Assembly: GCA_913061075.1 (NCBI GenBank)
Contig: CAJXSK010000002.1
Location: 186,001 to 250,000, forward strand
Reading direction: 5' to 3'
Origin: an uncultured Piscirickettsiaceae bacterium
GTDB lineage: Bacteria; Pseudomonadota; Gammaproteobacteria; Methylococcales; Cycloclasticaceae
DNA length: 64,000 bases
The translations under genes and the position numbers were made by a program. Each line of letters begins with the position of its first letter. The first letter of the stretch is position 1. Below, piece by piece: positions 8,083-39,105 of the stretch. The notes beneath the pieces are model-generated. The model made no database searches. It was given only the letters and a program-made list of their open reading frames with translations, and had not been told where the DNA came from.

Positions 8083-8086
8083 ATGT

Positions 8087-9316: not shown

Positions 9317-9360
9317 GTTACAAAATTTAATTAATTGATTAACGAGAAAGGGGAAATATT

Positions 9361-10524: not shown

Positions 10525-10540
10525 TTGTTGAACAAAATAG

Positions 10541-10566
10541 GTGAGCAGTTCTGTCGGACTGCTCAC
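10541..10566 (+). terminator. Inverted repeat after ftsZ, possible weak terminator
   Basis: Arms GTGAGCAGT and ACTGCTCAC pair perfectly over nine bases around an eight-base loop. No run of T follows (the next bases are GTTCGGC), so if it terminates transcription it would do so weakly or with Rho. It could instead protect the 3' end of the ftsZ message. lpxC is about 90 bases beyond and has its own candidate promoter. Confidence 0.4.
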
Positions 10567-10577
10567 GTTCGGCTTTG

Positions 10578-10604
10578 TTGAAAATACGAGAGGTGTGTTA
10601 AGAT
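10578..10604 (+). promoter_or_regulatory. Candidate lpxC promoter
   Basis: A TTGAAA box at 10578-10583 is followed 15 bases later by TGTTAAGAT, which reads as an extended -10 element (TG, one base, TAAGAT at 10599-10604). The spacing is shorter than ideal, but an extended -10 tolerates that. It lies between the ftsZ hairpin and the lpxC start, leaving an untranslated leader of about 45 bases. Inferred from sequence alone. Confidence 0.35.
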
Positions 10605-10654
10605 AAAAAAATAAAGAATATTTTATTCAACTATTTATTTGCTTGGAGTTGTAA

Positions 10655-20379: not shown

Positions 20380-20411
20380 ATTAAGGCTTCAGGTGTGTTT
20401 CGCTAACGTCC

Positions 20412-21632: not shown

Positions 21633-21637
21633 AAGTA

Positions 21638-23473: not shown

Positions 23474-24883
23474 TTACTCTTTTGTTCGACCATAAAGGTC
23501 CTCAAAACGCACAATATCATCTTCCCCAAGGTATGAGCCAGATTGCACCTCAATCATTTCAACGGGTACCTTTCCGGGGTTTTCCAATGAATGCACAGAG
23601 CCAATGGGCACGTACGTTGATTCATTTTCGGACAATAACCGTTCAACATCATCGATAGTGACTTTAGCCGTACCAGAAACGACGATCCAGTGTTCAGCTC
23701 GATGGTGGTGCATTTGTACCGACAGTTTCGCGCCAGGATTTACCGTAATGCGCTTCACCTGGTATCGCTCACCTACATCAATAGAGTCATATTTACCCCA
23801 GGGGCGATAAATTTTTCGATGACTTTCTGATTCGCTGCGGGAGTTTTCTTTAAGCTGGTCAACTAGCGATTTTACATCCTGTACGTGGTCAGGGTGTGCA
23901 ACCATTACAGCATCAGCCGTTTCCACCACAATGGCTTTGTCCATGCCGAGAGTGGTCACGAGCCGGTGTTCTGAATGAATATAACAATTGGTAGAGTTTT
24001 TTTGCAGCACATCACCGCGAATAACATTATTATCAGCATCTTTTTCAGCTGTTTCCCACAGTGATGTCCAAGAACCTAGGTCACTCCAACCAGCATCTAA
24101 CGGAACAACCACACCATGGTCGGTTTTTTCCATTACGGCATAGTCGATGGATTCAGAGGGGCATTGCTCGAAGGATGTGGATTCTAAACGAGTAAAGTCC
24201 ATGTCGTGTGACGATTGTTCGAGCGCTTGTTCGCAAGCATTTAAAATATCAGGCCGAAATTCTCTCATTTCTTCAATCAAAGTGGAGGCTTTAAATAAAA
24301 ACATGCCGCTGTTCCAGAAAAAATTTCCTGCTTCAATATATTGTTGAGCGGTGTCTGCATTGGGTTTCTCAACAAAACGTGAGATAGGATGAGAGTTATT
24401 ACTCGACATATTAGCTTCAATATAACCAAAGCCTGTTTCGGCGTGGGTAGGCACAATGCCAAATGTAACAATTTTCCCAGCTTCCGCTAATGGTTGGGCA
24501 ACGGATAATGCGTCATGAAAGGCTTGTTTGTTGTTAATGACATGATCAGAGGGCAGAATCAGTAACAACGCCTCAGGGTCACTGGTTAAAGCTGCAATGG
24601 TTAAAGCCGGTGCGGTGTTACGCCCTATAGGTTCTAAAATAATAGATTCTGCTGTGATGTCAAGTTCTCTCAACTGTTCAGCCACCATGAATCGGTGGTC
24701 ATCACTGCAAATCACCATGGGTTGGCTAGATATTATTGGTGTATTCAAGCGCAAAAGTGTTTCTTGGAACATCGTCTGTTCAGATGTAATAGCTAGAAAC
24801 TGCTTAGGGCGAGATTTACGAGACAGAGGCCAAAGGCGGGTGCCAGAGCCGCCGGAGAGGATGACGGGGGAAATCATGTTCAT
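23474..24883 (-). CDS. manC: ManC/AlgA-type mannose-1-phosphate guanylyltransferase / mannose-6-phosphate isomerase
   Basis: Makes GDP-mannose from mannose-1-phosphate and GTP. Its second domain interconverts fructose-6-phosphate and mannose-6-phosphate. The 469 residues start with the nucleotidyltransferase signature GGSGTRLWPLSRKSRPKQFL and continue with the FVEKP and DAGWSDLGSW motifs. The C-terminal type II isomerase cupin contains PWGKYDSID and MHHHRAEHWIVVSGTA. The GDP-mannose would feed the GDP-mannose dehydratase at 29.3-30.4 kb. A second in-frame ATG (24877) two codons in would also fit. No phosphomannomutase gene is in this window. Confidence 0.95.
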   Translation of the reverse strand: MNMISPVILSGGSGTRLWPLSRKSRPKQFLAITSEQTMFQETLLRLNTPIISSQPMVICSDDHRFMVAEQLRELDITAESIILEPIGRNTAPALTIAALTSDPEALLLILPSDHVINNKQAFHDALSVAQPLAEAGKIVTFGIVPTHAETGFGYIEANMSSNNSHPISRFVEKPNADTAQQYIEAGNFFWNSGMFLFKASTLIEEMREFRPDILNACEQALEQSSHDMDFTRLESTSFEQCPSESIDYAVMEKTDHGVVVPLDAGWSDLGSWTSLWETAEKDADNNVIRGDVLQKNSTNCYIHSEHRLVTTLGMDKAIVVETADAVMVAHPDHVQDVKSLVDQLKENSRSESESHRKIYRPWGKYDSIDVGERYQVKRITVNPGAKLSVQMHHHRAEHWIVVSGTAKVTIDDVERLLSENESTYVPIGSVHSLENPGKVPVEMIEVQSGSYLGEDDIVRFEDLYGRTKE

Positions 24884-24919
24884 TTTAGAAAGTTAAAATC
24901 CGTTTAATAAAGTGAGGTA

Positions 24920-24951
24920 ATTATAGTTGAAAACACCTAGATAATTAGGTG
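24920..24951 (-). promoter_or_regulatory. Candidate manC promoter with an overlapping palindrome
   Basis: Read on the minus strand, a perfect TATAAT (24920-24925) lies about 37 bases before the manC start. Just upstream is an inverted repeat, CACCTA (24946-24951) and TAGGTG (24934-24939) around six bases, followed on this strand by TTTT. The repeat occupies the spacer of the presumed promoter, so it could be an operator. The T run also makes it a weak intrinsic terminator for the neuA operon that ends at 25033. No convincing -35 box is visible. Confidence 0.4.
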
Positions 24952-25032
24952 CGGTGTTAAAGCTGTTTTATATTTGTGAAGTAAACTCGGAGTAAGTGGG
25001 GTAAAACATGCTTTCTAGGTTGTTTTATATGA

Positions 25033-25719
25033 TTATCGCATGCTGCTTTGAAGAAGGTTTTCCTTCATTAAGGTCTCAGCTATCAAAAGATCTAATTCGG
25101 TATCTATATCTATACTACGTTCCAATGGCATAAAAAATGGATGGCTTTTGTAAGGAATAAGATGTGTTGTGGCTGATTTAAATGCTTCGACTTTAAACCA
25201 ATATATGGCTCCGTTTATGCGAAATCTTTCAGTATAATCCTGACTTCTTTTTACATTTAATGTTGCTAGGAAACTATCGAAGTTATCCTCTTTTTGATAT
25301 GTCCATTCATTTGGTATTTCGCAAGATGTTACTCCTATAACTGAATTATAGTTTCCTTTTTTAAATTTACGATAAGAGGCTAAGATATCCTCTATTGATC
25401 TTAGTGGGGAGGTCGGTTGCAAGTAGCAGATATTACCGGTTGGTATATTCTCTATATGATGTTGAATAACATTTGCGGCTGTCGAATTATCACATGATAA
25501 GTGCAGAGGCCTTAATTCATTTACAAGGACGCCACAGGAATTAGAAAAATGTGCGATATCTTGAGAGTCGGTTGAAACAATTATTTTATCGAATATCTTG
25601 CTTTCTTTTGCTGCTTGTAGGGTGTAGTAAATAAGTGGCCTACCACATAAGGAAGCTAAGTTTTTATTTGGGATTCTTTTACTTCCGCCCCTAGCAGGGA
25701 TAATGCAAATATTTTTCAT
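25033..25719 (-). CDS. NeuA-type acylneuraminate (nonulosonate) cytidylyltransferase
   Basis: Activates a nonulosonic acid with CTP to its CMP-sugar. The 228-residue protein has the family's N-terminal nucleotide-binding motif IPARGGSKRIPNKN at 7-20, the internal YLQPTSPLRS motif, and the C-terminal acidic metal-binding SIDIDTELDL. Homologues use sialic, legionaminic or pseudaminic acid; sequence does not fix the substrate here. It is the last gene of the minus-strand polysaccharide run, and its start overlaps the end of the aminotransferase gene by four bases. About 150 bases separate it from manC, including a weak hairpin. Confidence 0.88.
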   Translation of the reverse strand: MKNICIIPARGGSKRIPNKNLASLCGRPLIYYTLQAAKESKIFDKIIVSTDSQDIAHFSNSCGVLVNELRPLHLSCDNSTAANVIQHHIENIPTGNICYLQPTSPLRSIEDILASYRKFKKGNYNSVIGVTSCEIPNEWTYQKEDNFDSFLATLNVKRSQDYTERFRINGAIYWFKVEAFKSATTHLIPYKSHPFFMPLERSIDIDTELDLLIAETLMKENLLQSSMR

Positions 25720-26807
25720 TCAATCTTCATTGATTGCTTTATATTCCTAGTAACTTTTTTCAAATCGCTCTCACTTAAATTTGGGTGGGCTGGTAACAAC
25801 AATAGTTCTTTATATAAACAAGCTGATAAATCATAATTATTTTGTTTACGACAAGCTTCGAAAGCTGGCTGAATATTCATTGGCTCGAAGCAACGCCTGT
25901 ATTCGATGCTTGAAGCAGCAAAGTTTTTCTCTATACGTTCTCTGATATGGGGTGTTACCCTAATTGCAACAACCCAATTCGAAGAAAAACAATCTGGTTC
26001 TATATGTTGAAAACTAATATCATGATGTTGTAATTCTGACTGGTAGAATTGAAGTGTAATCAATCTTTTCGCCAATAAAATATCTATGATTTCATATTGC
26101 GCTACACCTACTGCGGCTTGCAAGTTGGTCATTCGGTAATTATATCCAACAACCTCATGATGGTATCGCCTTCCTGGCGCCATTCCATGATCTCTGAGAA
26201 CACGTGCTTTGTCCGCTATTTTACTTGAGTTGAAAATAATCCCACCTCCTTCTCCAGTGGTAATGACCTTGTTGCCGAAGTAGCTATAAGTTACCGCATC
26301 TCCCCAGTTCCCAATATCACGATTAAATATTTTTGCGCCCACTGCTTGAGCAGCATCGACGATGCAATAAATTTTTTTTTCTTTTGCCAATTTAGTTACT
26401 GCTTCAATACCTGAAGGATTACCAAAGAGGCAGACTGTAATGATTGCCTTTGTTCGGTCGTTTAATACGGCCTTAACTTTTTCTAGATTTATGTTCCACG
26501 TTTGTTCGTCAACATCAACAATAACTGGTATTGCACCTATATATAATATAGCATTAAGTGTTGCTCCAAAAGTTATGTTAGGTACGATAACTTCGTCGTT
26601 TTTCTTTACCCCTAGAGCTAACAATGCAAGGTGCAATGCCACTGTACCATTTGATGTTGACACCGCATTCCCGAGAGTATTACGTGCCATATGTTTTTCA
26701 AATTGGGCTACAAAGCGCCCTTGAGATGAAATCCAGTTTTCGTCTAAACACTGATTTAGGTACAGGCGGGTATTACCATTTAAATTTGGCTCAAAGATCC
26801 TAATCAT
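25716..26807 (-). CDS. DegT/DnrJ/EryC1-family sugar aminotransferase, perosamine-synthase-like
   Basis: PLP-dependent nucleotide-sugar aminotransferase of 363 residues. The PLP lysine is K180 in SYFGNKVITTGEGG and the cofactor aspartate is in IVDAAQAVGA (D151). The opening EPNLNGNTRLYLNQCLDENWISS and the VGYNYRMTNLQAA segment strongly recall GDP-perosamine synthases (PerA/RfbE), which aminate GDP-4-keto-6-deoxymannose. That fits the GDP-mannose dehydratase in the same operon. Aminotransferases of nonulosonate pathways (LegC, PseC) belong to the same superfamily, so that alternative stays open. Four-base overlaps tie it to both neighbours. Confidence 0.85.
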   Translation of the reverse strand: MIRIFEPNLNGNTRLYLNQCLDENWISSQGRFVAQFEKHMARNTLGNAVSTSNGTVALHLALLALGVKKNDEVIVPNITFGATLNAILYIGAIPVIVDVDEQTWNINLEKVKAVLNDRTKAIITVCLFGNPSGIEAVTKLAKEKKIYCIVDAAQAVGAKIFNRDIGNWGDAVTYSYFGNKVITTGEGGGIIFNSSKIADKARVLRDHGMAPGRRYHHEVVGYNYRMTNLQAAVGVAQYEIIDILLAKRLITLQFYQSELQHHDISFQHIEPDCFSSNWVVAIRVTPHIRERIEKNFAASSIEYRRCFEPMNIQPAFEACRKQNNYDLSACLYKELLLLPAHPNLSESDLKKVTRNIKQSMKIE

Positions 26808-27649
26808 AAGCTGTCTTCACATATGCTAATTAGTTTTTTTAGTATATTTTTTTTGTATGAATATACTTCTATTACGGTGTATGGCATTGTTTCTATGTGA
26901 CCAACAAACCATGAGTTTTTATCAAAGGGATCATTAGTGTCTTCATTGCCGTTATTATCGCTTAAATGCAGACCTCCAATTTTGTCTTTAACTTGTTTGA
27001 GGCCTGAAAGCAGATCAAAACCAAGTGCGTTTGAACTCACTTTAAAATGTGCGACATCTAAAAGCAATTCAACGGGGGCATCGATGTTTGTAAAAAAAAA
27101 CTCAATTTCATCAGGGTCGCTAAGTAATAGAGGGTTTTTTTGGAAGGCATGCAGGTTACTTAGTGAGAGCACGTTGTTTTCAATCAGTAACCTTACGCCT
27201 TGATGCTCAGCATATTCAGATAATAAGATTATTTGTTTTTTAAATTCATCAAGGCTTCTTTTACGGTCTTGAATTTGGCGACCTACTATGGTGCGACCTA
27301 ATTCTTTTGGCTTTGGATCAAAGAGAAAACCTGCATGGACAGCATACTGAGGGATTTCAAACCTACTACATATGTTGATTGACTTTTTTACATGTGCAAT
27401 AGACTGATTGCTAACGTTTTCATCAAAGCTTGCAAGATTTAACACATAGCTATTTTTCGAATAAGGAAGGTAGTTATGGATTGAAATATTGCAATCTAAA
27501 GAAATTAAAGAGCTTAAGTTTTTTTCAAGCTGTTCGTCATACAAGCCTCCTGAAAGTTCTATGTTCTTAAAGCCTAATTGATAGAGGTATAATGCAGCTT
27601 GACAGGCTGTTTGTTTTTTGAAGCCACCTGTGGAAATATATGTATTCAC
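26804..27649 (-). CDS. Sugar-phosphate isomerase/epimerase-like TIM-barrel protein
   Basis: A 281-residue protein with the pattern of the xylose-isomerase-like TIM barrel family (AP endonuclease family 2). Likely metal ligands are seen in strands ending SIHNY, YAVHAGFL, LLIENN, ELLLDVAHFKV and GLHLSDNNG, followed by VIEVYS near the C-terminus. The reaction cannot be named. Its place between a NeuD-type acyltransferase and a sugar aminotransferase, with four-base overlaps on both sides, implies a step in the same sugar pathway. It may substitute for the missing NeuC/LegG hydrolysing epimerase, but that is inference only. Confidence 0.75.
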   Translation of the reverse strand: MNTYISTGGFKKQTACQAALYLYQLGFKNIELSGGLYDEQLEKNLSSLISLDCNISIHNYLPYSKNSYVLNLASFDENVSNQSIAHVKKSINICSRFEIPQYAVHAGFLFDPKPKELGRTIVGRQIQDRKRSLDEFKKQIILLSEYAEHQGVRLLIENNVLSLSNLHAFQKNPLLLSDPDEIEFFFTNIDAPVELLLDVAHFKVSSNALGFDLLSGLKQVKDKIGGLHLSDNNGNEDTNDPFDKNSWFVGHIETMPYTVIEVYSYKKNILKKLISICEDSL

Positions 27650-28251
27650 GTTTTTAACCGTACTGGATTTCCAATATATGTTCCAGGCTGAGCTAGGTCT
27701 TTAGTGACCACTCCACCGCTACCAATAATAATATCTTTGCCCAATGTAATGCCATCATTGACAATCACACCTGCTCCAACGAATACTCGATCATTAATAC
27801 TACATTTCCCACATATAATTGAGCCAGGTGATAAGTTTACAAAATCACCTATGACCGAGTCATGATCAATGATGCAGCCAGTGTTAATGATGCAATGATT
27901 GCCAACCACAACATTTTCTCTAACTATTGCACCTGGCATCACGACTACACCTGTACCTATGCTTGCAGTTGGGGCGATGGTGGCAGTTGGTGAAATTAAT
28001 GTTATTGCAGAAATCTCTTTTAATTGTTTAAGGCTTGCTATATGTTCCCTGATGGAAATATCGCCGATAGCAATGAAATAGCCAGAGCTATCATCTGTTT
28101 CGAAGTGTTCTAATTTTAAAGGTTTTTTTTGAGATATGTTTGATATGTGTAATGTAATATTTTTAATTTTAAAATCATGTAAGGATCCGATCACTTCTTT
28201 CACGGAGCGTGCATGACCACCTGTTCCTATTAAAATGATTTTTTGATGCAT
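27646..28251 (-). CDS. NeuD/PglD-family sugar N- or O-acyltransferase
   Basis: A 201-residue acyltransferase with an N-terminal Rossmann-like half ([18 protein letters not shown]) and a C-terminal left-handed beta-helix of hexapeptide repeats (ISPTATIAPTASIGTGVVVM onward, ending TYIGNPVRLK). The family includes the sialic acid O-acetyltransferase NeuD, the bacillosamine N-acetyltransferase PglD and perosamine N-acetyltransferase PerB. With the perosamine-synthase-like enzyme nearby, a 4-amino sugar is a plausible acceptor. I chose the ATG at 28251; a TTG at 28272 in frame would add seven residues with a GGTGA ahead of it. The gene overlaps the NeuB gene by 22 bases. Confidence 0.83.
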   Translation of the reverse strand: MHQKIILIGTGGHARSVKEVIGSLHDFKIKNITLHISNISQKKPLKLEHFETDDSSGYFIAIGDISIREHIASLKQLKEISAITLISPTATIAPTASIGTGVVVMPGAIVRENVVVGNHCIINTGCIIDHDSVIGDFVNLSPGSIICGKCSINDRVFVGAGVIVNDGITLGKDIIIGSGGVVTKDLAQPGTYIGNPVRLKT

Positions 28252-29282
28252 AAAATATCTGAGAGTGAACAATGATCACCGCGCATTCGGGCAGTTGAAA
28301 TAACGTTGCCTATAAAACCATCTATCGCCTGCCAAGGCAACCCAGTACCTGGTCTAATCATCATAAAATCAGTTTTGTGAAGTGTTTCACCGACTAGAAT
28401 ATCTCTAGAATATGCTAACGACTTTCTGGATATTTGTGCCATCTCCTTTTCTTCATTCTGCATTGTTTTGACTCGATTTCCTAGTTGGGCTTCCGAGCGC
28501 CTTATATTTTTAACTAAATTTGAAAACTCATTTGGCGTACTTGATGCCTTATGGTCCGGCCCCTCTAAGGCTTTATTTGAAGTAAAGTGTTTTTCAATGA
28601 TTGATGCTCCTAACCCAACGGATAAAATTGCCCCAACGGAACCTATACTGTGATCTGAAAGCCCAACGGAATAGGGGAAGTTTTGTTTTAGTGTGTTTAT
28701 CACGTTGAGATTCAAACTTGTATCAGAACAAGGGTAGTTGGACACGCAATGTAGTAAGGCTAAATCAGAGGGTTTGTAGGTTGAAAATTTTCTTAGAGCA
28801 AATTCGATTTCAGCTAAACTTGCCATTCCTAATGATATAATTGAAGGTTTTCTTGTTGCAGCAATTGCTTCTAGTAAGGGGATATCTACTAAATCAGCTG
28901 ATGCGATTTTGTATTCTGATACCCCTAAATCTTCAAGCATTTCAACTGCATTTATACTATATGGTGTTGATATAAAGTTGATAGACTTTTGTTGGCAGTA
29001 CGAAATAATTTCTTGGTGTTGACTTTTACTTAACTCCAGTTTTTTCAACATTTCATAATGAGTTTCACCAGAGCATGTATTAGTAATTTGATATTGCACT
29101 TTAGGAGTGTCAATGCGCGATAAGTCTTCGGCTCTGAAAGATTGAAATTTAACTGCATCAGCTCCCGCAGAGCTAGCTAGGTCGACAAGCTCTATTGCAT
29201 GTTCAACTGAACCATTATGGTTTACACCTATTTCAGCAATTATATAGGTGTGAAGGCGATTCTTATACTTTATGCAATTCAT
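28230..29282 (-). CDS. NeuB-family nonulosonic acid synthase
   Basis: Condenses phosphoenolpyruvate with a free hexose derivative to give a nine-carbon 2-keto acid. The 350 residues comprise a TIM barrel with [56 protein letters not shown] and EKHFT, then a C-terminal SAF (antifreeze-like) domain that closes the active site. All are NeuB hallmarks. Whether the product is sialic, legionaminic or another acid cannot be read. No NeuC/LegG-type epimerase that would supply the usual ManNAc-like substrate is in the window. The gene overlaps gmd upstream by 20 bases. Confidence 0.9.
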
Positions 29283-30357
29283 GATTGATATCTGCCTCGA
29301 CCATTTCGTATATCATTTCTTCTAAAGATATTGTAGGGGTCCAGCCGAGTTTTTCTTGGGCCTTTGTAGCATCACCTAATAAAGAGCTAACTTCGGTGGG
29401 TCTATAATAGTAGGAGTCTATGGCTATAATTTTTTTACCGATTAAATTTTTCAAATCACCTGCTTTGTATGCTGGAACTGATGGAGTGCAAATACCTGCA
29501 ATACGACCAATCTCGTTAACTCCGCAGCCCTCCCACTCTATTTCTAAGCCAATTATTTTCGCTGCTGTTTCAATAAAATATCTAACACTACGTTTCTCTC
29601 CTGTTGCAATCACAAAATCCTCGGGGCTTTCTTGTTGTAACATCAGCCACTGCGCATAAACATAATCCTTTGCGTGCCCCCAGTCGCGTTCGGCATCTAA
29701 GTTACCCATATAAAGGCACTTTTGTGTGCGGGTAACTATACGAGCAAGACCACTTGTGATTTTACGAGTTACAAACGTTTCGCCTCGCCTTTCGGATTCA
29801 TGATTGAAAAGTATTCCATTACAAGCGAACATATTATATGCTTCACGATAATTCACTGTTATCCAGTAAGCATATAGTTTAGCGACAGCATATGGCGAGC
29901 GAGGGTAGAAGGGGGTTGTTTCTGACTGAACTGGTTCTTGAACTAGTCCATATAACTCTGAGGTAGAGGCTTGATAAAATCTTGTAGTACTACATAAGCC
30001 CATCATTCGAATCGCCTCAAGAAGGCGGAGTGTTCCTAAAGCATCTGAGTTTGCCGTATATTCTGGGGTATCGAATGAAACATGAACGTGACTCTGTGCT
30101 GCCAAATTATATATTTCATCTGGTTGAACTTTACTAATGACACGAGATATACTGGTGGAGTCAGTTAGGTCACCATAATGTAAATGTAACTGATTTTTTA
30201 AGTCGTGTTCGTCAGCTATTAAATGTCTAAGCCGTTGTATGTTATCAGATGAACTGCGGCGTCTCAAACCGTGTACTTCGTAACCTTTTTCCAGTAGTAA
30301 TTCGGCTAAATATGAGCCGTCTTGGCCAGTTATACCGGTGATAAGTGCAGTCTTCAC
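29263..30357 (-). CDS. gmd: GDP-mannose 4,6-dehydratase
   Basis: NADP-dependent short-chain dehydratase converting GDP-mannose to GDP-4-keto-6-deoxymannose, precursor of fucose, rhamnose, colitose and perosamine. The 364 residues start with the coenzyme motif [20 protein letters not shown] and carry the catalytic set T132, E134, Y156 and K160 in STSELYG and SPYAVAK. The [18 protein letters not shown] motif is also typical. It begins with GTG after a strong AAAGGAAT site. No fucose or rhamnose reductase follows it; the perosamine-synthase-like aminotransferase is the only visible enzyme that could use its product. Confidence 0.95.
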
Positions 30358-30394
30358 AATATTCCTTTGTAGTTTAAATGTACTTTATTCATAA

Positions 30395-30907
30395 TTAATG
30401 AAATTTATTTTGAGCTTTTAACCTTATGTAATGTTCAATACTTCTCTGTTTGAAAACTTCTGCTGGGTGCCCTCCTGCAACAGAATATTTGGGAATATCA
30501 CGTACTACACAACTGCCTGCTTGAATGATTGCTCCCTCACCTATTTTAACACCCCCCAAAACTATTACCCGGCTTCCTAACCAAACATTGTCTCCAATTT
30601 CAATATCTTTGATTAGATAAGTATTGTCGTAGGGCAATGCTTCGCCATTAAAGTTATGATATTGAGTTATCAAAAGGCAGTCTGGCCCAGAGTGAAAATT
30701 ATTTCCTATAGTGACTTTCCCTTTGCCATTAATAACTAAACCGTTAAAGTGAATATTTGTCCCTAGATATGTGTTTTTTGTTAATCGCGTCGGTCCATTT
30801 ACCTTTATGAGTTCCCCATAGTCACCACACTTACTAAGAACATAAGTGGTACGAATCATCCTTTTTAGATTACGAAACATTTCCGATATCAACTTTAAAA
30901 CGTACAT
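30395..30907 (-). CDS. Hexapeptide-repeat (left-handed beta-helix) acyltransferase
   Basis: A 170-residue protein of the maltose/galactoside O-acetyltransferase superfamily. From about residue 38 it is built of hexapeptide repeats, with the acceptor-side histidine segment TQYHNFNG, DIEIGDNVWLGSRVIVLGGVKIGEGAIIQAGSCVVRD in the repeats (written here only as pattern: GDNVWLG, GVKIGEGAIIQAGS), and the closing SVAGGHPAEVF. It probably O-acetylates a sugar of the surface polysaccharide. It lies between the flippase and gmd in the minus-strand operon. Acceptor unknown. Confidence 0.8.
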   Translation of the reverse strand: MYVLKLISEMFRNLKRMIRTTYVLSKCGDYGELIKVNGPTRLTKNTYLGTNIHFNGLVINGKGKVTIGNNFHSGPDCLLITQYHNFNGEALPYDNTYLIKDIEIGDNVWLGSRVIVLGGVKIGEGAIIQAGSCVVRDIPKYSVAGGHPAEVFKQRSIEHYIRLKAQNKFH

Positions 30908-30913
30908 GATATT

Positions 30914-32188
30914 TTACCTTAGACGCCATGGCATTTGTACAAGGCGACTTGCTGTTACCCATGTTAATATCCATTGGACAAACATTCCTAAACACATAGC
31001 CCATGCAGCACCGAGAATCCCGTATTTCTCTAACAGAATAAACAGTAAAACTAAGTTTATAGCACCACTAACTAAAGTTATTTTTGAAATCAAAAGAGTC
31101 TCCTTCTTGTAAAAAATATAGCCGCAGGACATGAAGTACATCCCATGAAAAGCTTTGGCAAGTACTAACCAACCAATGATCGAGACCGATTTTGAGTATT
31201 GTTCGCCGGCAATAAAGATTAAAACCTTGTCGCCAATTGCAAAGGTTAATGCTACGCATACGCTAAGGAAAAATGCAAAGTAATAAGTTAACTTAACGAT
31301 TTTTACTTTTTCAGAATAATTGTCTTTGGCAAGTGTGTCATAAAGCCAAGGGGTATATGCTTTGTTAATACCTTCTAACAATATTCCCAGCACCATTGCT
31401 AATTGAGCTGCGACCATATAGTAACCAGCATATTCTAGTCCTAATTGATGACTGATTACTACCTTATCAATACTTAATAGTAAAAAACTGCCCAGAACAT
31501 GTGGAAGAAGAGGGATACCAAACTTCAACGCTTCTATTATTAGGTCTTTTCTCCATACGAATAAAAGAAGACCGTCAAGTCGTAGTAATATTAAGGAGAT
31601 TATACTGAACAAACAGGCGGTTGCCGAAATACCCATTACTCTTCCTTCTGTACCTTGGGAAAGAATAACAACTAAGAAGACAGACAAGAGCATATTTACA
31701 ATACTCATCGTTACTTGAAGAGTGCCAAAGTTAATCGGCTGATTTCTTACTTGCCATTGCCCCAATCTTAGTTGTATTACAAAGCCTGCACTTGCAGTAA
31801 GCACCCCTAAAAGCAACCACTGAGAATTGATACCTATAAGGGTGTAGATTGTGCCTCCAATCAGGGAAACAATGCCAATAACAATTATGCTGCTTATGAT
31901 TAGCAAAAATATACATGAAGAAATAAATTCTGCCATTTCTCCTTTTGTATCATCATAATACTTCCTTAATGCTGCCCCATGAACACTAAATCCACAAACT
32001 GAGGCAATCATTGCAATCCATACTTGATAGACAGCAACTTCTCCATATTCCGAGGGGCTGAGATATCTAGTTAATACGGGAAGTAATGCAAAAGGAATCA
32101 ATGAATTGATTATGTTTGCAGCTACGTAAATTCCGGAGGCCGAAACTAAATTGGTTTTTCGGCTATTAATCTTCATTTGTTGTCCCAT
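30914..32188 (-). CDS. Wzx-type polysaccharide flippase (MOP superfamily)
   Basis: A polytopic inner-membrane protein of about 424 residues with roughly a dozen hydrophobic helices. The N-terminal pattern IPFALLPVLTRYLSPSEYGEVAVYQ is typical of oligosaccharide flippases. It would move lipid-linked sugar repeats to the periplasm. It is the first gene of the minus-strand polysaccharide operon. Start choice is uncertain: ATG at 32188 (MGQQM), ATG at 32176 (MKINSRK) or GTG at 32200; none has a clear ribosome-binding site. No Wzy polymerase or Wzz chain-length regulator is recognised in the window. Confidence 0.88.
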   Translation of the reverse strand: MGQQMKINSRKTNLVSASGIYVAANIINSLIPFALLPVLTRYLSPSEYGEVAVYQVWIAMIASVCGFSVHGAALRKYYDDTKGEMAEFISSCIFLLIISSIIVIGIVSLIGGTIYTLIGINSQWLLLGVLTASAGFVIQLRLGQWQVRNQPINFGTLQVTMSIVNMLLSVFLVVILSQGTEGRVMGISATACLFSIISLILLRLDGLLLFVWRKDLIIEALKFGIPLLPHVLGSFLLLSIDKVVISHQLGLEYAGYYMVAAQLAMVLGILLEGINKAYTPWLYDTLAKDNYSEKVKIVKLTYYFAFFLSVCVALTFAIGDKVLIFIAGEQYSKSVSIIGWLVLAKAFHGMYFMSCGYIFYKKETLLISKITLVSGAINLVLLFILLEKYGILGAAWAMCLGMFVQWILTWVTASRLVQMPWRLR

Positions 32189-32317
32189 AGTCAAATACAC
32201 TCTGTAGTGTATGTTTAGTTAAACTAATTGGCCTCGTTAGTTTTATCTTTGTAATTAAACAAACTTTTGGTAAGGTTTTAGTTGTTATTAAATCTGTTTC
32301 ATAGACGTATGATGTGA

Positions 32318-32343
32318 CGATGAATTTAGATATTTATTCATCG
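32318..32343. repeat. Inverted repeat in the divergent polysaccharide promoter region
   Basis: Eight-base arms CGATGAAT (32318-32325) and ATTCATCG (32336-32343) around a ten-base AT-rich centre. It lies midway between the divergently transcribed flippase gene and the glycosyltransferase gene at 32419, so it could be a regulator binding site for either direction. No homologous regulator gene is adjacent. Confidence 0.4.
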
Positions 32344-32353
32344 TTTAATTCAC

Positions 32354-32379
32354 CTATTGAGAGTTATTCAATAGTTTTT
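32354..32379 (+). terminator. Hairpin followed by T run before the 32419 gene, possible attenuator
   Basis: Arms CTATTGA (32354-32360) and TCAATAG (32368-32374) pair over seven bases and are followed directly by TTTTT. This resembles a weak intrinsic terminator reading towards the glycosyltransferase gene at 32419, with no gene upstream on this strand to terminate. A leader attenuator is one possibility; the stem is A+T-rich and may not be stable. Confidence 0.3.
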
Positions 32380-32418
32380 CAGCTTGTTGACACGATTATA
32401 TTTAAGTGAGAAAAAAAG

Positions 32419-33747
32419 ATGTTAGATTTGAGTTTAGCAGGTTTTCGTAAAAAACTATGGGGACTGGAAAGAAGGGAAAATTTATTTAACTATGAGTCTA
32501 GTGGAGTCTTTCTATGGCAAGCGTTTCGTTTTGTAATTTTTATTAGGATTGCTAAAAAATTAAAAATTATTGAAACACCGCATAGAATGAAAAAAAATGA
32601 GTCAATATATTCAAAGCTTTTAACAAGCTTGAAAAGATTGAGATTTTTTTTTAGAGACCCTTTGTTTATTTCTCAACCAATTAGTCAGAAAGAGACTGCT
32701 TGCATTCTGGAACATTCTAGATCGGTACCGTATGAGGGTAAGAATGTTGATATATATTCTCACAAACTTTCTCAATCATTTTATGAAAACAATACCCCTT
32801 TTATAAGACTGGACACTGGGGAAAGTGGGTATGATGAAAAGACCAATTGCGCTAATCGGTTTTATATTGATTTGATGTCAAACCTTGTAGAAGGCTTGGC
32901 GTTACTTTTGTATTTTTGGCCTTCAAAAGACGATAAGGCTATTTTTCAAATAAGTCAGATACTGATTAATGATTTTGGTGATGCGGGAAATGTTGGCATT
33001 CTTCTAAAAAAGAATTTAATAAAGTTCAAGTTGGAAAAACGATTTTATAGAAAAATTTTTTTACGATTTAATATAAATAAACTCTATGTTGTTGTCTCCT
33101 ATGGGCGCGCCTCTTCTATTGATGCAGCTAGAAGTTTAGGTATAGAGGTGGTCGAGTTACAGCACGGCATTATTTCCCCACATCACCCAGGTTATGGCGT
33201 GTCTAGTAAGGGTTTAGAGCTAACATACTTTCCAGATAAATTTTATGCATGGAGTGACTTCTGGAAGAGTGTATATGATGAGCTATGTTTACCAGTAGAG
33301 GTTGTTAACCATGGGTTTCCATTTTTATATGATGGGATAGACAAATATTTAAATATGCCAAAAGACCCAAATAAAATTGTTGTGATATCTCAGGGAACTA
33401 TAGGGAAGGATCTTGCCAGTTTTATTTTTCAGAATCAGTTTGCTTTAAAAAATTATCAAATTAAGTATAAATTACATCCAGGAGAATATGCAGTCTGGAA
33501 AGAATATTCTGATTTGCTTAAATTGAACGAATTAAAAAATGTGGAAGTTATCAAAGCTTGCGATTTGTATGCTCTTCTATCTGATTCTAAGTACGTGATT
33601 GGTGTTTATTCAACTGCAATATACGAAGCTATTGAGCTAGGAGTGAAACCTATACTTGTTAACTTGTCAGGAATAGAATATATGGAAGACTTACTGACGT
33701 CAGGAAAAGCAGTAACATTTGAAGGTTTTATGTGTAATGTTGAATAA
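32419..33747 (+). CDS. Putative GT-B-like transferase of surface polysaccharide synthesis
   Basis: A 442-residue protein I cannot assign to a named family with certainty. Residues 1-230 are poorly conserved and rich in Lys, Phe and Ile. The C-terminal half has features seen in GT-B capsule and glycerophosphate/Kdo transferases: a histidine loop VELQHGIISPHHPG, a strand-turn VVISQGTIGKDLA, then KLHPGEYAVW and GVYSTAIYEAIELGVKPILV. In a locus with NeuB and NeuA it is a candidate for the nonulosonate transferase, by context only. It is transcribed away from the minus-strand operon and is followed by a decayed gene remnant that it overlaps by 11 bases. Confidence 0.6.
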   Translation: MLDLSLAGFRKKLWGLERRENLFNYESSGVFLWQAFRFVIFIRIAKKLKIIETPHRMKKNESIYSKLLTSLKRLRFFFRDPLFISQPISQKETACILEHSRSVPYEGKNVDIYSHKLSQSFYENNTPFIRLDTGESGYDEKTNCANRFYIDLMSNLVEGLALLLYFWPSKDDKAIFQISQILINDFGDAGNVGILLKKNLIKFKLEKRFYRKIFLRFNINKLYVVVSYGRASSIDAARSLGIEVVELQHGIISPHHPGYGVSSKGLELTYFPDKFYAWSDFWKSVYDELCLPVEVVNHGFPFLYDGIDKYLNMPKDPNKIVVISQGTIGKDLASFIFQNQFALKNYQIKYKLHPGEYAVWKEYSDLLKLNELKNVEVIKACDLYALLSDSKYVIGVYSTAIYEAIELGVKPILVNLSGIEYMEDLLTSGKAVTFEGFMCNVE

Positions 33748-34264
33748 ATCAATGTATATATATATTGATAAAAACCTTATTTATCGCTGGTTACTTAGTT
33801 TGATTGAAAATGCAATTGTTGGTACGTTGTTTCGGCAATTTGTAGAGGTCAAAAAGAGCAGCGAGTATATAGAGTTTTGGTTAGAATAAGGTAAGCATGT
33901 CTTTGTTACGCTTCATGGGCATTTGAGTATAGGTGGCCGTATCATTTTTTTTGAAAATTGTTAATCTATGGTTATGGATATCAAATATTATGTCTGTTAT
34001 TTCTCTTGCTCACCTTAGAGCTAAAAAACATCTTTAGCATGTGCAGCTATATAGAAGTTATAGAAAAAATAATTCAAATGAGGAAGCCACTGTTATATAT
34101 TGAAGCAGTCTTTAATGACTGCTGAAATTGCGGGTAACTGGATATTGTTTAAAAATAAGATAGAAACAATTCAAGAAGACGTTTATTTGAGAAACATGAA
34201 TAATATTCAATTGTGGGGTGGGTTAATATCAAAAAAATGTTGGCCATTCTTAAGTGACCTTTAA
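33737..34264 (+). pseudogene. Decayed gene remnant between two glycosyltransferase genes
   Basis: This 0.5-kb gap has no intact gene but holds protein-like segments in two frames. From the ATG at 33737, 50 codons run to a TAA at 33887-33889; the same frame then continues with GKHVFVTLHGHLSIGGRIIFFENC to 33963. A shift at an eight-T tract (33945-33952) opens the next frame with WISNIMSVISLAHLRAKKHL, a TAG, and HVQLYRSYRKNNSN. From about 34082 the first frame is open again: LKQSLMTAEIAGNWILFKN to QLWGGLISKKCWPFLSDL, ending at 34264. This fits one former gene of roughly 170 codons with two stops and two frameshifts. Its family is not recognised. Its end overlaps the following gene's -10 to -1 region. 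Confidence 0.45.
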
Positions 34265-34265
34265 G

Positions 34266-35456
34266 ATGATGCGTAGAGTATTGTTTATTGCATATCATTT
34301 CCCGCCATGTATTGAAATCGCGGGGAGTATTAGATCCAAAAAATTTGCAGATTTTTTGGATCTATTTGGCTGGCATCCATCAATCGTTGCGTTAGGTTCA
34401 GAAATTGATAGAAAGGATGCTGAAATTGTTAGTAATATTACAAGGTTAAAATCATTTTTACCTTTTTCAAAACCATATGAACTTTACCCGTACGGTTGGG
34501 CTATAAATTTGTGGAACAAACTCAGGGTTAGAAAAGATTTTGATGTGATATATGTTTCTTGCCCGCCTTTTCCTCAAGCTATTTCAGGTGTGCTGCTGAA
34601 GAAAAATGCTGGGATTCCTTTGGTGCTTGACCTAAGAGATGCATGGTCTTTGGATCCGTATCAAGAAGGAAGTCGTTTGAAAAAGGTTGTTTATAAATAC
34701 GTGTTTCCTAAAGTGGAAAGGTGGGCATTTTTGAATGCTGATAGAATTATTATGAATACGCCATCTATGTTGAATGCTTATCAAAAAATGTATCCAGAAT
34801 TTGCCTCGCGTCTAGTGTTTATACCAAATGGTTATGATGAACGAGATTTCGTGGGAAAAAATGATGTTATTAGTGGCAAAAAAAAAGATTTTATGGAAAT
34901 TCTTTATTGCGGAAGGTTTGGAGTAGGGGGTCGAGATCCAGAGTTGATTTTTGGAGCTATAAAGTTATTAGAAGACACCTTGAAAATAAAGTGTATCATT
35001 TATGGAGAGCAACCTGAAAGAGTTTCAAAGTGTATAAAATTAATGGGCTTAGAATCAAAAGTAATTCTTAGAAACCAGCTCGCACACTCTGAAATGATTA
35101 AAAAAATGCTTAAGGCAGATGTGCTGTTGGCTTATCAAGAGAACTCACTTAAAGAGGTTCAGGCGGTTTCTGGTAAGACGTATGAGTATCTTAGGTCTGG
35201 GAGGCCGATATTATCAATTGCACCGCAAGGGGATAATCAAGAACTAATTCAAAAATATTCTGCCCGTTATGAAATAGTTACAACGTATGAAGTAAACGTA
35301 GTAGTTGATGCTATCAAATCACTATATAAAGACTGGCTTGATGGAAAGTTACATAGTTATAGTGCTGAGACTTCAGGTTTTCATGATAAGTACGAGCGTA
35401 AAGTATTAACTAACCAGTTATCGAAAGTATTGAATAAAGTTGTAGGTGTTATATAA
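34266..35456 (+). CDS. GT4-family glycosyltransferase
   Basis: A 396-residue GT-B enzyme of the GT4 (WcaI/WbuB-like) type. The N-terminus RRVLFIAYHFPPC is characteristic, followed by LVLDLRDAWSLDP, FIPNGYD and LYCGRFGVGGRDP. The donor-site end has an E-rich GKTYEYLRSGRPIL motif. ATG codons at 34266 and 34269 are both plausible; an in-frame GTG at 34254 lies upstream and adds MTFK. Donor and acceptor are unknown. It is followed almost directly by another GT4 gene, so the pair is probably one transcript. Confidence 0.88.
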   Translation: MMRRVLFIAYHFPPCIEIAGSIRSKKFADFLDLFGWHPSIVALGSEIDRKDAEIVSNITRLKSFLPFSKPYELYPYGWAINLWNKLRVRKDFDVIYVSCPPFPQAISGVLLKKNAGIPLVLDLRDAWSLDPYQEGSRLKKVVYKYVFPKVERWAFLNADRIIMNTPSMLNAYQKMYPEFASRLVFIPNGYDERDFVGKNDVISGKKKDFMEILYCGRFGVGGRDPELIFGAIKLLEDTLKIKCIIYGEQPERVSKCIKLMGLESKVILRNQLAHSEMIKKMLKADVLLAYQENSLKEVQAVSGKTYEYLRSGRPILSIAPQGDNQELIQKYSARYEIVTTYEVNVVVDAIKSLYKDWLDGKLHSYSAETSGFHDKYERKVLTNQLSKVLNKVVGVI

Positions 35457-35457
35457 G

Positions 35458-36450
35458 GTGATAAGTAGCCCAATCGCGAGAGGTAATGGTGCATATATTG
35501 TTCATAAAAATATAGAGCAGGCGATAAAAGACTATCAAGTGAAGTCTTATCATTCTTACCGCACATTATTCCCGCCTAGTTTGTGGCCGTTAGTGGGTAA
35601 AATACAGCCCGACATTATCCATACTACGCCTGACTATGCAAGTTTTCATAATCGAAAAAACGTGCCTTTGGTTTTGACTTTTCACGGGTATGTTTTGGAT
35701 GCGGCTTTCCATAAGCATTGTTCTACATTGCAAAAGATTCATTATAAAACAGATTTGAGATGGTTTACTAAAAAAGCCGTAAAGGCAGCAAATGTAGTAA
35801 CTGCGGTTAGCCAATTTACTGCGAATTTAGTTCAGTCAGATTTGGGGACTAAACAGTCGATAGAGGTTATTTATAATGGCATTGACGAGCAAAAGTTCAA
35901 ACCAATTAGGAAATCCAAAAAGGCTGAATTTCGTGTGTTATACAGCGGAAATTTATCAAAGTTAAAGGGGGTGAACTTGCTCCCAATGATTGCAGATAAG
36001 TTAAATAGCAATATAAAGATCTTGTATACGTCGGGCTTAAGAAGAAGAATGTCGTTAGCCTATCATCCACGAATGGAAAATATTGGCCATATAGCACATA
36101 AAGATATGGCGGAAGTGTATCAGTCAGTTGATTTGTTGGTATCCCCTACAATTAGAGAGGGCTTTGGACTTGGGATTGTAGAAGCGATGGCTTGTGGTTT
36201 GCCAATTGTCGCGACTGACAGCTCATCGATACCAGAATTAGTAAGTCACAATGAAGGTGGGTATTTATGTGATTTAGGTAAAATAGAACAATTTGCCGAT
36301 AGGATAAATGAACTTGCTGAGAGCCCAGTGTTATGTGAAAGTATGGGTGAATACAATCGCAACAAGGTGGAAAAACAATTTACTTCAGATAGGATGATAA
36401 ATGAATACAAAGCCCTATTTGAAAGGGTTTTGACAACTTGGAGTCGCTAA
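35458..36450 (+). CDS. GT4-family glycosyltransferase
   Basis: A 330-residue GT-B glycosyltransferase. It has GNGAYIVHKNI near the start, LVLTFHGYV, a TAVSQFTANL helix, VIYNGIDEQKF, and the donor-binding REGFGLGIVEAMACGLPIVATD (here the EX7E motif). I chose the GTG at 35458, one base after the previous stop, because AGGTG at 35444-35448 is well placed for it; a GTG at 35446 would add four residues. Its stop codon overlaps the stop of the convergent fusion gene. It probably adds one sugar of the repeat unit. Confidence 0.87.
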   Translation: MISSPIARGNGAYIVHKNIEQAIKDYQVKSYHSYRTLFPPSLWPLVGKIQPDIIHTTPDYASFHNRKNVPLVLTFHGYVLDAAFHKHCSTLQKIHYKTDLRWFTKKAVKAANVVTAVSQFTANLVQSDLGTKQSIEVIYNGIDEQKFKPIRKSKKAEFRVLYSGNLSKLKGVNLLPMIADKLNSNIKILYTSGLRRRMSLAYHPRMENIGHIAHKDMAEVYQSVDLLVSPTIREGFGLGIVEAMACGLPIVATDSSSIPELVSHNEGGYLCDLGKIEQFADRINELAESPVLCESMGEYNRNKVEKQFTSDRMINEYKALFERVLTTWSR

Positions 36451-38207
36451 TTGCTTTTGTATAAGAAGATGAAAGTAGGGTGTATAAAGGTGGCTTTTTC
36501 TAGCAAACTAATTGGTATTTTATTCAGGTATCCTTCGATCCATATGGGTGTGTTCATTAAATAGGATGATGGGTTTTTTATAATTTTCCCACTAAAACTT
36601 ATTAGTCTACCGTTGTTTAATAACGTTTTTATATTGCCCAAACTTAATAAATCGATATCTTCTTTATAGCGCCCTGTTTTTTTTAGGATTTTAATAAATA
36701 ATTTATGTGGAAGGTAGTGAAGAAAGTAAAGCCTATAGTGCACTTCAAAAGGCCATAAACGATTTGGAGTTGCTAAGTAGAGACCCCCCCCTTTTCTAAG
36801 GACGCGTTTAATTTCTTTGATATGTAATTCTTGATCTTGGACATGTTCGATGACATGGTTTGAAATAACAAAATCAAAGCTATTATCTTGAAAAGGTAGT
36901 GCTTCGTTACAAAGTGAGAAATTAAAATTACTTTTGGACTGCCGTGTGTCAGCAATATCGACGCTGAAAACTGTATTTGTTTCGCCAATATAAGATGATA
37001 TTTCGCCGTTACCTGTTCCTATATCTAAAATAGTTTGATTCTGAACTGGTGATTCAATGTATTCTTGTAAGACGTTGAGAATTTTTTGTGCTTTGTTCTT
37101 GCGATTAGTAGTTGGTGAAAAGCCTGTGCGATGCGTTTTGTCTGGGTTCAAGTTCTTTAAGGTGTCTATATAGTGTTTTGTTATTTTTGGCCATTCGAAA
37201 TTTGTTAGGCAGTATTCTTGTGTATGTTCTTTAATGTTTTTTGATGATGTTTTTAAAAGAGTCTCTTTTTCCAGTATCGTGTTTACATAGTTATTGAAAT
37301 TTAAAGGTTCAATTAACCAACCATTTTTGTTTTCTTGTATTGCATCTTTGATGCCTTCTAAGTCAGAAGAGATGGAAGGCAGGCCACAGATTCCTGCTTC
37401 TAATTGGGTGATTCCAAATCCTTCAATATCGCCTTTGATTGGTATATTTGGTTGTATGAACAAGTCACTATGCATAAATAAACTGTTTTTGAATTGCTCA
37501 TTAACTTCACCTAGTAATGCTACGTTTTTTTGTAAATTAAGCTCGTCGATAAGTAATTGAATTTTTTCTTTATTTGGCCCATCACCGGCAATTAAATAAA
37601 CCATGTTTTTTGGTAGTTTCGTAACAACGTTTGCGACAAACCAGTAAACGCCCTTTCTGTCTATAAGCCGGCCCAAAGATAGCAAGACGAATTTGTTCTT
37701 AATGTTAATAGGTAAGATTTTTAGAAATTCTGTTTTTGATAATGGTTCTAAGCTTGATGGCTCGACACCATTTGGGATGATAGTGATTATTGATGCAGGT
37801 ATTCCTGCCGCTATTGCAATTTCTTGCGTTGAGTGGCTAACCGCGATGAAATGATCAATTCGTTTAAAGAAAAAACGGACCCATAGGTTCTGGTAAACAG
37901 GGTTACCCCAAGTAATATCTAAACCGTGCAAAACACATGTAACTGGTTTGTTAGAAAATAGTTTTATGAACCAGCCAATGATTGCGGTAACTCCATCTCC
38001 AAGTAGAATTTGGTCCGAAGACTTTAATTTAAAAAGCCCTAAAATTATCGCCCAAGGGATAAACAACGGAAGTGCTTTTTTACCATGTTTGTTGATGATT
38101 TTATTGCAAGTTACCAACGTAGACAGGTGGCGCACTAATGCTTCATTCTGGTTTTCGATGCCACCAATTATTGGTGGGTGTGCTCTTGAGATAAAGAGAA
38201 GGTTCAT
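36447..38207 (-). CDS. Glycosyltransferase-methyltransferase fusion
   Basis: A 586-residue two-domain protein. Residues 1-350 are a GT4-type glycosyltransferase: ISRAHPPIIGGIENQNE at the start, VLHGLDITW, IPNGVEP, LSLGRLIDRKG, and EGFGITQLEAGICGLP (262-277). Residues from about 385 form a class I SAM-dependent methyltransferase with motif I ILDIGTGNGE at 393-402, an acidic loop FSVDIAD, and the FDFVISNHVIEHV and VLRKGGGLYLATPN motifs. The protein may add a sugar and then methylate it, or one domain may act on a neighbour's product, for example capping a chain. There is no break in the frame, so the fusion looks real. Confidence 0.87.
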   Translation of the reverse strand: MNLLFISRAHPPIIGGIENQNEALVRHLSTLVTCNKIINKHGKKALPLFIPWAIILGLFKLKSSDQILLGDGVTAIIGWFIKLFSNKPVTCVLHGLDITWGNPVYQNLWVRFFFKRIDHFIAVSHSTQEIAIAAGIPASIITIIPNGVEPSSLEPLSKTEFLKILPINIKNKFVLLSLGRLIDRKGVYWFVANVVTKLPKNMVYLIAGDGPNKEKIQLLIDELNLQKNVALLGEVNEQFKNSLFMHSDLFIQPNIPIKGDIEGFGITQLEAGICGLPSISSDLEGIKDAIQENKNGWLIEPLNFNNYVNTILEKETLLKTSSKNIKEHTQEYCLTNFEWPKITKHYIDTLKNLNPDKTHRTGFSPTTNRKNKAQKILNVLQEYIESPVQNQTILDIGTGNGEISSYIGETNTVFSVDIADTRQSKSNFNFSLCNEALPFQDNSFDFVISNHVIEHVQDQELHIKEIKRVLRKGGGLYLATPNRLWPFEVHYRLYFLHYLPHKLFIKILKKTGRYKEDIDLLSLGNIKTLLNNGRLISFSGKIIKNPSSYLMNTPIWIEGYLNKIPISLLEKATFIHPTFIFLYKSN

Positions 38208-38226
38208 TTGTTGGATAGAAATATTG

Positions 38227-39105
38227 TTACGTATTGTCGTTCTCTGAATTTCGATAATGTAACGATGAAATTTGCTCCGACAATATCCCCATTAAAAAAA
38301 TGAAGATTGAAGATACGTACATTAATAAGCTGCCCTTGCTCAAACCGCCCCATGAAAAATAAGTATGTAAATGGTTTAAAAAGCCGATAAAAAAGAAGAT
38401 TAAACTAACAGGTAAGAATAGGCGCATAGGAGAAAATAAAGCGCCAATTTTTAAGATAATAACAAAAAAACGCAGGCCGTCTTTGGCGAGTTTTATTTTG
38501 CTTTTTCCTTCCCGTTTACCAGCGTGTATGGGGATATAGGCAACAGGTAAAGCCGAGCGAAAAAATGCCATAGTGGAGGTGGTGGGGTATGAAAAACCGT
38601 TGGGCAATAGATAGAGGAATTTTTTAAAGTGTTTTGCTCGAACTGCTCTAAATCCTGACGTTAAGTCTTCAATTTTTTGGCCAGTCATAAATGAGGCTAG
38701 TTTGTTGAAAACGGTGTTTCCAAGAAGTCTTTTTTTAGATGCGTGAGTAGAAGGTTGCCTGGCGCCAACCACCATGTCATACCCTTCATCAAGTTTATCT
38801 AGTAATCGTTGAATATCTTCAGGCCGGTGTTGGCCATCTGCATCCATAAAAACGATGATGTCACCAGTTGCATTACGCGCACCTGTTTTAATGGCTGCTC
38901 CATTGCCTAATGGCTTTGGGTGAGATACAACATTCACCTTGAACTGATGACATATTTCTGCTGACAGATCGGTTGAGCCATCATTAACAACGAGTATTTC
39001 TGCTGTTGGTTGAGCTTCTTTGATAAAAGGGAGTAATTGAATAAGGTTGTCTTCTTCATTTAAGCAAGGCAATACGATGCTTAGAGAAGGTTTTGCAGTT
39101 GCCAT
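38227..39105 (-). CDS. GT2-family polyprenyl-phosphate glycosyltransferase-like protein
   Basis: A 292-residue GT-A enzyme similar to dolichol-/undecaprenyl-phosphate sugar transferases. The N-terminal VLPCLNEEDNL, VVNDGSTD, GNGAAIKTGA and FMDADGQHRPED motifs are typical, with DXD-like DADGQ. Then comes DLTSGFRA and the KREGKSKI motif, followed by two C-terminal membrane helices. It may load a sugar on undecaprenyl phosphate for modification of the surface glycan. It lies 19 bases upstream of the fusion gene and probably shares its transcript. Confidence 0.88.
   Translation of the reverse strand: MATAKPSLSIVLPCLNEEDNLIQLLPFIKEAQPTAEILVVNDGSTDLSAEICHQFKVNVVSHPKPLGNGAAIKTGARNATGDIIVFMDADGQHRPEDIQRLLDKLDEGYDMVVGARQPSTHASKKRLLGNTVFNKLASFMTGQKIEDLTSGFRAVRAKHFKKFLYLLPNGFSYPTTSTMAFFRSALPVAYIPIHAGKREGKSKIKLAKDGLRFFVIILKIGALFSPMRLFLPVSLIFFFIGFLNHLHTYFSWGGLSKGSLLMYVSSIFIFLMGILSEQISSLHYRNSENDNT

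Follow-up and report, generated by a model that had tools for sequence, protein, structure and literature searches.

Few transferases for pseudaminic or legionaminic acid have been identified, although the genes for the biosynthesis of these sugars are widespread, and a passage of a 2019 review states that no predictions existed for Leg transferases (PMC6388019). In the polysialyltransferase (PST) SiaD of Mannheimia haemolytica, according to the accessible part of its description, H291, S339 and T340 bind the phosphate, E323 binds the ribose, and the base is E153, part of the D/E-D/E-G motif (PMC5517516). KrkA binds the CMP phosphate through Ser271, Ser272 and His227 of the (K/R)XHP motif and a ribose hydroxyl through Glu276, and retaining Kdo enzymes use a QxxxD nucleophile, as reported in the available portion of PMC12887879. 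For Tannerella forsythia, excerpts of two papers (PMC6388019, PMC6120980) describe GtfS (TFUB4_00887) as a GT-B enzyme of 445/442 residues with a reported HP motif, list its gene next to pseI and state that knock-outs lose the nonulosonate. Here we analysed P0001, a protein encoded in a window of 64,000 nucleotides (the whole stretch of DNA under study), which most likely decorates a surface glycan with a bacterial sialic-acid-like sugar and most likely belongs to an unnamed family that travels with nonulosonate synthesis genes.

The reading frame of P0001 starts with ATG and is unbroken in the ORF listing of the window (Table 1), the one frame read on the opposite strand is full of stops, and the GC fraction of the gene is 0.331 versus 0.404 for the window. 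In the 500-base gap 3' of the gene no ORF longer than 56 aa is listed, and no remnant of the tested relatives was found there except the tail of P0001 itself. The HisGly loop (Q248-H249-G250) and the KLHPGE segment (351-356) that the initial annotation had seen in this 442-residue protein are both present, and its statement that the protein has no clear family is borne out: a Pfam search at E<=10, in which HMMER filters discard most matches above about E 0.1, listed only DUF6716 (E 0.3) and reached no family cut-off. This listing holds no match of P0001 to GT38 (PF07388), to GT52 (PF07922, which one of the 17 members of profile A3 described below matches at E 0.023), to PF06002 and PF11477 (which we take to be GT42 and GT80), to the Capsule_synth family of KpsC/KpsS (PF05159), to the CDP-glycerol/ribitol transferases (PF04464), to PF02350 or to PF01973 (MptE-like in the Pfam copy used and presumably the Maf family). 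NCBIfam, searched under the same filters, gave a C-terminal match (residues 344-431) to the BFO_1060 family glycosyltransferase (NF046086) at E 1.6e-6 and 27.5 bits, far below the 200-bit cut-off, together with weak C-terminal matches to LA_1612 and surf_polysacc and two chance-like rows, none of which reaches an NCBIfam cut-off. P0001 falls outside every curated family tested, and a strong match to a non-CMP-sugar transferase family, which the initial annotation had named as counting against its guess, was found in Pfam and NCBIfam neither for P0001 nor for its aligned relatives.

Table 1. Features of P0001 and of the surrounding glycan locus, in window coordinates.
Feature	Position	Strand	Remark
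CMP-nonulosonate cytidylyltransferase, PseF-like	25033..25719	-	173 bits, under cut-off 205.7
LegC/PseC-like DegT aminotransferase	25716..26807	-	under both cut-offs
Xylose-isomerase-like TIM barrel (AP_endonuc_2)	26804..27649	-	no role assigned
NeuD-type sugar acetyltransferase	27646..28272	-	
NeuB-family nonulosonate synthase	28230..29282	-	
GDP-mannose 4,6-dehydratase	29263..30357	-	558 bits
Wzx-type polysaccharide flippase	30914..32200	-	
P0001, GT-B protein, 442 aa, predicted CMP-nonulosonate transferase	32419..33747	+	ORF, fold model, profile match
E246-x-Q248-H249-G250 loop after predicted N-domain strand	33154..33168	+	aligned with [DE][DE]G of KpsS/KpsC
Q325-G-T-I-G329	33391..33405	+	at the place of the QxxxD nucleophile of retaining Kdo transferases
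K351-L-H353-P354	33469..33480	+	(K/R)xHP, CMP-phosphate-binding in known enzymes
D382	33562..33564	+	16 before S398; D or E in 13/17
S398-T399...E403	33610..33627	+	spacing as S271-S272...E276 (CMP site) of KrkA
Two GT4-type transferases 3' of P0001	34254..36450	+	likely to build the acceptor glycan

With P0001 as query, relatives were found in 3 of 229 genomes from the class and 2 of 201 from the order, and profile A1 had matches in 7 of 398 phylum genomes, the window's own genome being counted each time; profile A2 (13 members) matched in 22 of 370 class genomes, own genome included and most of them weakly, and among 78 genomes from another class its single match was G451 itself. Genome contigs scanned with a pattern yielded four relatives, three of them in Brachybacterium or Xylanimonas (presumably Actinomycetota), and the plasmids and viral contigs searched held none. 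Since the alignments span most of their length (4e-67 for the genome contigs, 7.7e-57 for the class and 2e-63 for the order), the match of P0001 to these relatives is more than chance; identity in the alignments is 15-37%, and the relatives include other classes and Actinomycetota. Judged by these searches, the family is rare, patchy and so far unnamed, and no description of it was recognised in the literature searched around this family and its kind, where an unnamed family is not searchable by name and subscription journals lay mostly outside our scope.

Members of A2 have no Pfam match at 0.01 and match five NCBIfam families at that threshold (best E 1.6e-6, the bits of member 1 far under the cut-offs). 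Profile A3 comprises 17 of the 19 family places known when it was built (16 weaker places are not counted) and leaves out the G785 gene (26 bits) and L005 (close to L003/L004), both of which were kept for the neighbourhood counts, G785 as a miss. One of its 17 members, in G218, reaches 19 bits (E 0.001) on PF05159, narrowly short of the cut-off of 20, and in the genome search the G218 gene has 20.0 bits and was counted above the cut-off. Among seven weaker-scoring relatives, Pfam returned Capsule_synth for L056 and L059, A-2_8-polyST for L057 and Epimerase_2 for L056 and L058 (these latter two families below cut-off) and nothing for L060 and L062, and L061 is of the CDP-glycerol type. In sequence terms, the P0001 family sits near a wider CMP/CDP-binding GT-B group. 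In the three actinobacterial loci L003, L004 and L005 (about 7331-10807) the domain is C-terminal in a protein of 1,118 to 1,146 aa, the N-terminal half of which looks GT4-like by eye.

A single-sequence AlphaFold2 model was unusable (pLDDT 36.7), and a model from a 13-row alignment was used instead, which has a GT-B fold with pLDDT 83.6 and pTM 0.84. VIA-align returned GT-B rows, with two Rossmann-like domains, at Z up to 14.8 over residues ~90-442, and MurG, the M. haemolytica polysialyltransferase with CDP (5wcn, 14.8) and NeuC (14.7) tie at Z 14.7-14.8. Among the 50 best Foldseek rows, UDP-sugar 2-epimerases and GT1 enzymes rank highest and no sialyltransferase occurs, and a viral structure library gave generic matches only; VIA-align is blind to folds that Foldseek missed, and the absence of a family from these lists is no evidence against it. 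As far as the model goes, the fold alone does not choose the donor and the rankings do not single out CMP enzymes.

The motifs of CMP-ulosonate transferases, (K/R)xHP and S-(S/T), are both found in P0001, and across the 17 aligned members HP and S398 are kept in all, K or R at 351 and S or T at 399 in 13 each, and E403 in 15. In the loop after the predicted N-domain strand, Q248 and an E or D at 246 occur in 17/17 members and H249 in 15/17, with Tyr in the two actinobacterial members, where the loop reads QYA; the [DE][DE]G base motif of the bacterial sialyltransferases of GT38, GT52 and GT80 is absent, with QHG (15/17) at the aligned place. P0001 might be a retaining CMP-ulosonate transferase whose reaction passes through a covalent adduct, as with KpsC, WbbB, KrkA and perhaps KpsS1 (which we take to be a GT-B enzyme), and the distant sequence relation of its family to KpsC/KpsS speaks for this; the column of the QxxxD nucleophile, however, has no Asp in any of the 17 members (the alignment being loose there), and we consider such a mechanism very improbable.

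CDP-glycerol-type enzymes also share part of the motif set, TagF-type enzymes having a His-Gly loop and an HP motif, and P0001 could be a CDP-polyol (TagF/TarL-like) phosphotransferase that decorates the same glycan. In keeping with this, one A3 member matches PF04464 at E 0.063, and L061:1-10960 in G466, a weak match to the family, combines Pse genes with a PF04464 transferase (52 bits) and, at the margin of the sequence examined, a TagD-like ORF. Neither PF04464 for P0001 at E<=10 nor TagF/TarL in the PDB profile searches with A2, A3 and A4 was listed, however, and a TagD-like signature (in the pattern that we presume to define it) occurs in neither the window nor 18 family loci and, among the window and 19 loci, only in L061. 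Because P0001 has no PF04464 match and the loci have no TagD-like genes, the CDP-glycerol reading is lowered, and we hold it to be distinctly improbable.

A search of 177,635 PDB sequences with A3 at E<=10 returned four rows, two SiaD constructs (5e-8) and KpsC (0.11 and 0.19, weak), all of which are CMP-ulosonate transferases. The SiaD match depends on profile depth and shallower profiles find less: P0001 alone gave one chance match, A1 none and A2 only KpsC at E 0.62, while with A4 SiaD came up at 1.8e-5 and four rows of plasmepsin X (0.38-0.57) appeared as well, and two added members searched singly gave nothing relevant. Against single sequences, hhalign assigned Prob 7.1 to KpsS, 72.2 to KpsC and 13.3 to a GT4 control from the window; against a 3-row profile of that KpsS and two KpsC halves it gave Prob 90.8 over 228 columns, with QHG aligned on EEG and KLHP on KHHP.

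In ten genomes with matches from the class, order and phylum searches, we located NeuB (PF03102) and control GT4 genes (PF00534) and found 9 of 11 family places versus 8 of 97 GT4 places within 13 kb of NeuB (Fisher one-sided p 2.9e-7), a limit chosen after the distances were known, with 3 of the 97 GT4 places under the Pfam cut-off and the family places not fully independent (two lie in one genome, G222). At 5, 10 and 20 kb from NeuB the counts are 5, 7 and 9 of 11 versus 1, 6 and 11 of 97. Since GT4 genes are spread over several glycan loci, this proximity links the family to nonulosonate loci without establishing its role, and on its own it cannot tell whether a gene encodes the nonulosonate transferase or some other transferase acting on that glycan. 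The two places beyond the limit are the G116 gene, which adjoins a PseF-PseG fusion on a 6.3-kb contig, and the 26-bit match in G785, a genome without NeuB. A NeuB/PseI frame lies at 1.8-3.6 kb in all four relatives from genome contigs, and of the four new places that scored more than 80 bits in the later A2 class search, three are no further than 4.2 kb from NeuB; the remaining one, in G966, extends to the contig end with a DegT aminotransferase and NeuD beside it, the NeuBs being on other contigs. Among the weaker places (<45 bits), 6 of 16 are within 8 kb of NeuB, one of the six being of the CDP-glycerol type. That relatives lie in nonulosonate clusters and that the A3 matches in the PDB are all CMP-ulosonate transferases both support the initial guess of a CMP-nonulosonate transferase. 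It is improbable that P0001 transfers an ordinary NDP-sugar in the same glycan, the nonulosonate transferase being a GT4 enzyme or encoded elsewhere: other transferases do occur in nonulosonate clusters and the fold is common to MurG, UDP-sugar epimerases and GT1 enzymes, but the tie to NeuB is stronger for the P0001 family than for GT4 genes of the same genomes, and A3 found CMP-ulosonate enzymes only.

The relative in G286, a genome of the same genus, lies directly 3' of a complete pseBCFGHI set (each of the six exceeding its NCBIfam cut-off), the L002 locus has LegB (516 bits), a DegT aminotransferase, NeuD and NeuB, and NeuC stands beside the family gene in L020 (441 bits) and L063 (420 bits); from these gene sets, the family accompanies pseudaminate as well as legionaminate/neuraminate-type loci. 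As a separate observation, NeuB and NeuA flank a GMD-like dehydratase (246 bits) in the G098 locus (L055:2134-8138), with a family member adjoining. NeuC among the tied fold matches, UDP-sugar epimerases at the head of the Foldseek list and the lack of a NeuC/PseG match among the operon genes scanned in the window would fit a GT-B-fold NDP-sugar hydrolase/2-epimerase that takes the NeuC/PseG/LegG role and fills the missing step of the operon. Other family loci, however, already have NeuC (L020, L063) or PseG (327 bits in L026 of G286; 108 bits, below the cut-off of 153.55, in the G116 fusion of L023) beside the family gene, which lowers this reading, and PF02350 is not listed for P0001; we regard it as extremely improbable.

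In the window, the minus-strand frames for GDP-mannose 4,6-dehydratase, NeuB, NeuD, the TIM barrel, the aminotransferase and the cytidylyltransferase overlap in an operon-like manner, and a hexapeptide acetyltransferase and Wzx adjoin them. The nonulosonate genes noted beside P0001 are thus present (NeuB, NeuD and the PseF-like and LegC/PseC-like frames), and the other transferases of the locus are indeed of GT4 or GT2 type: three GT4-type genes (34254, 35446 and 36447, the last fused to a methyltransferase) and one GT2 (38227). The whole genome has one NeuB match, no second match to P0001 at E<=0.001 and no PF01973 or Capsule_synth match, and GT52 searches returned 0 in it, 0 in all 13 genomes and 0 in the control genomes too. 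The argument that P0001 is the best candidate by elimination stands in its own genome as far as PF01973 and Capsule_synth go but does not hold everywhere, as other candidate CMP-ulosonate transferases are present in G218, G966 and G116: among the 13 genomes PF01973 occurs at two places in G218 (on a contig with NeuB 4.5 kb away, which is not the contig of the family gene) and at one in G966, and in G116 contigs other than that of the family gene encode proteins like KpsS and KpsC.

Several further features of the window bear on the glycan itself. A sub-cutoff LegB match (94 bits) falls on the same protein as GDP-mannose 4,6-dehydratase, ManC lies at 23474 near the nonulosonate operon (23474-30357, minus strand), and from its gene content the operon perhaps makes a 5-hydroxy-7-acetamido nonulosonate starting from GDP-mannose. 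Immediately outside the glycan cluster are frames (19501-23353, minus strand) that on visual inspection resemble PilD, PilC and PilB, and the glycan might be destined for pilin. By eye, none of the frames of >=120 aa in 23474-39105 resembles a Wzy polymerase, which a short glycan or a polymerase gene elsewhere may explain.

The reading frame, the GT-B fold, the motifs with their spacing, the neighbourhood and the distant sequence relation to CMP-ulosonate transferases are computed results, and on this basis we think it likely, with good though not full confidence, that P0001 is a GT-B transferase that uses the CMP-nonulosonate made by the adjacent operon, holds CMP in its C-terminal domain, employs H249 as base, inverts the anomeric configuration and acts on a surface-glycan acceptor. 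In the proposed mechanism, H353 of KLHP and S398/T399 of the C-terminal Rossmann domain would hold the CMP phosphate and D382 and/or E403 would contact the ribose, while H249 of the N-domain QHG loop, the probable catalytic base by its place in the alignment, would most likely deprotonate the acceptor hydroxyl. Inversion would then proceed by single displacement, the route taken by bacterial sialyltransferases, and the Asp that serves retaining Kdo enzymes as nucleophile is absent. The acceptor of the nonulosonate would be a surface glycan under construction, probably a lipid-linked oligosaccharide that the neighbouring GT4 enzymes would build and Wzx would flip. A bolder reading, which we offer tentatively and consider unlikely as a whole, is that the family forms a separate CAZy-level group of inverting CMP-nonulosonate transferases that serves pseudaminic as well as legionaminic/neuraminic-type loci with the His of QHG as base instead of an acid, the donor here being an unusual GDP-mannose-derived nonulosonate (5-hydroxy, 7-acetamido).

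Compared with known systems, P0001 shares with SiaD of M. haemolytica (GT38, 5wc6/5wcn) the GT-B fold, KxHP and an S-T pair, and the ribose-binding E323 precedes S339-T340 by 16 residues, as D382 precedes S398; the base motif, however, is EEG in SiaD and QHG in P0001. KpsC and KpsS (PF05159; KpsC is GT107) resemble the family in the loop after the N-domain strand, in (K/R)xHP and in an S(S/T/Q)xxxE-like segment, and the likeness to KrkA (GT140) lies in the spacing of the CMP site as taken from its published description, but KpsC and KrkA are retaining enzymes with a QxxxD nucleophile that the P0001 family lacks. The pseudaminyltransferase KpsS1 (GT118) is alike in the predicted donor class and differs from P0001 in being retaining and KpsS-like, a distinction drawn from the available portion of its published description only (PMC12887879). 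T. forsythia GtfS is, by analogy, the nearest experimentally supported counterpart in gene order and size; compared by the accessible description only, it differs in its reported D/E-D/E-G and DXD motifs. P0001 may be a relative of GtfS, and if it proves to be one its novelty is reduced. Its motif signature, GT-B model and consistent neighbourhood make the family a source of concrete candidates in several bacterial groups. By analogy, P0001 is predicted to work like a bacterial sialyltransferase or polysialyltransferase, and its family is a test case for whether a His-based QHG site can take the place of the acid that these enzymes use as base.
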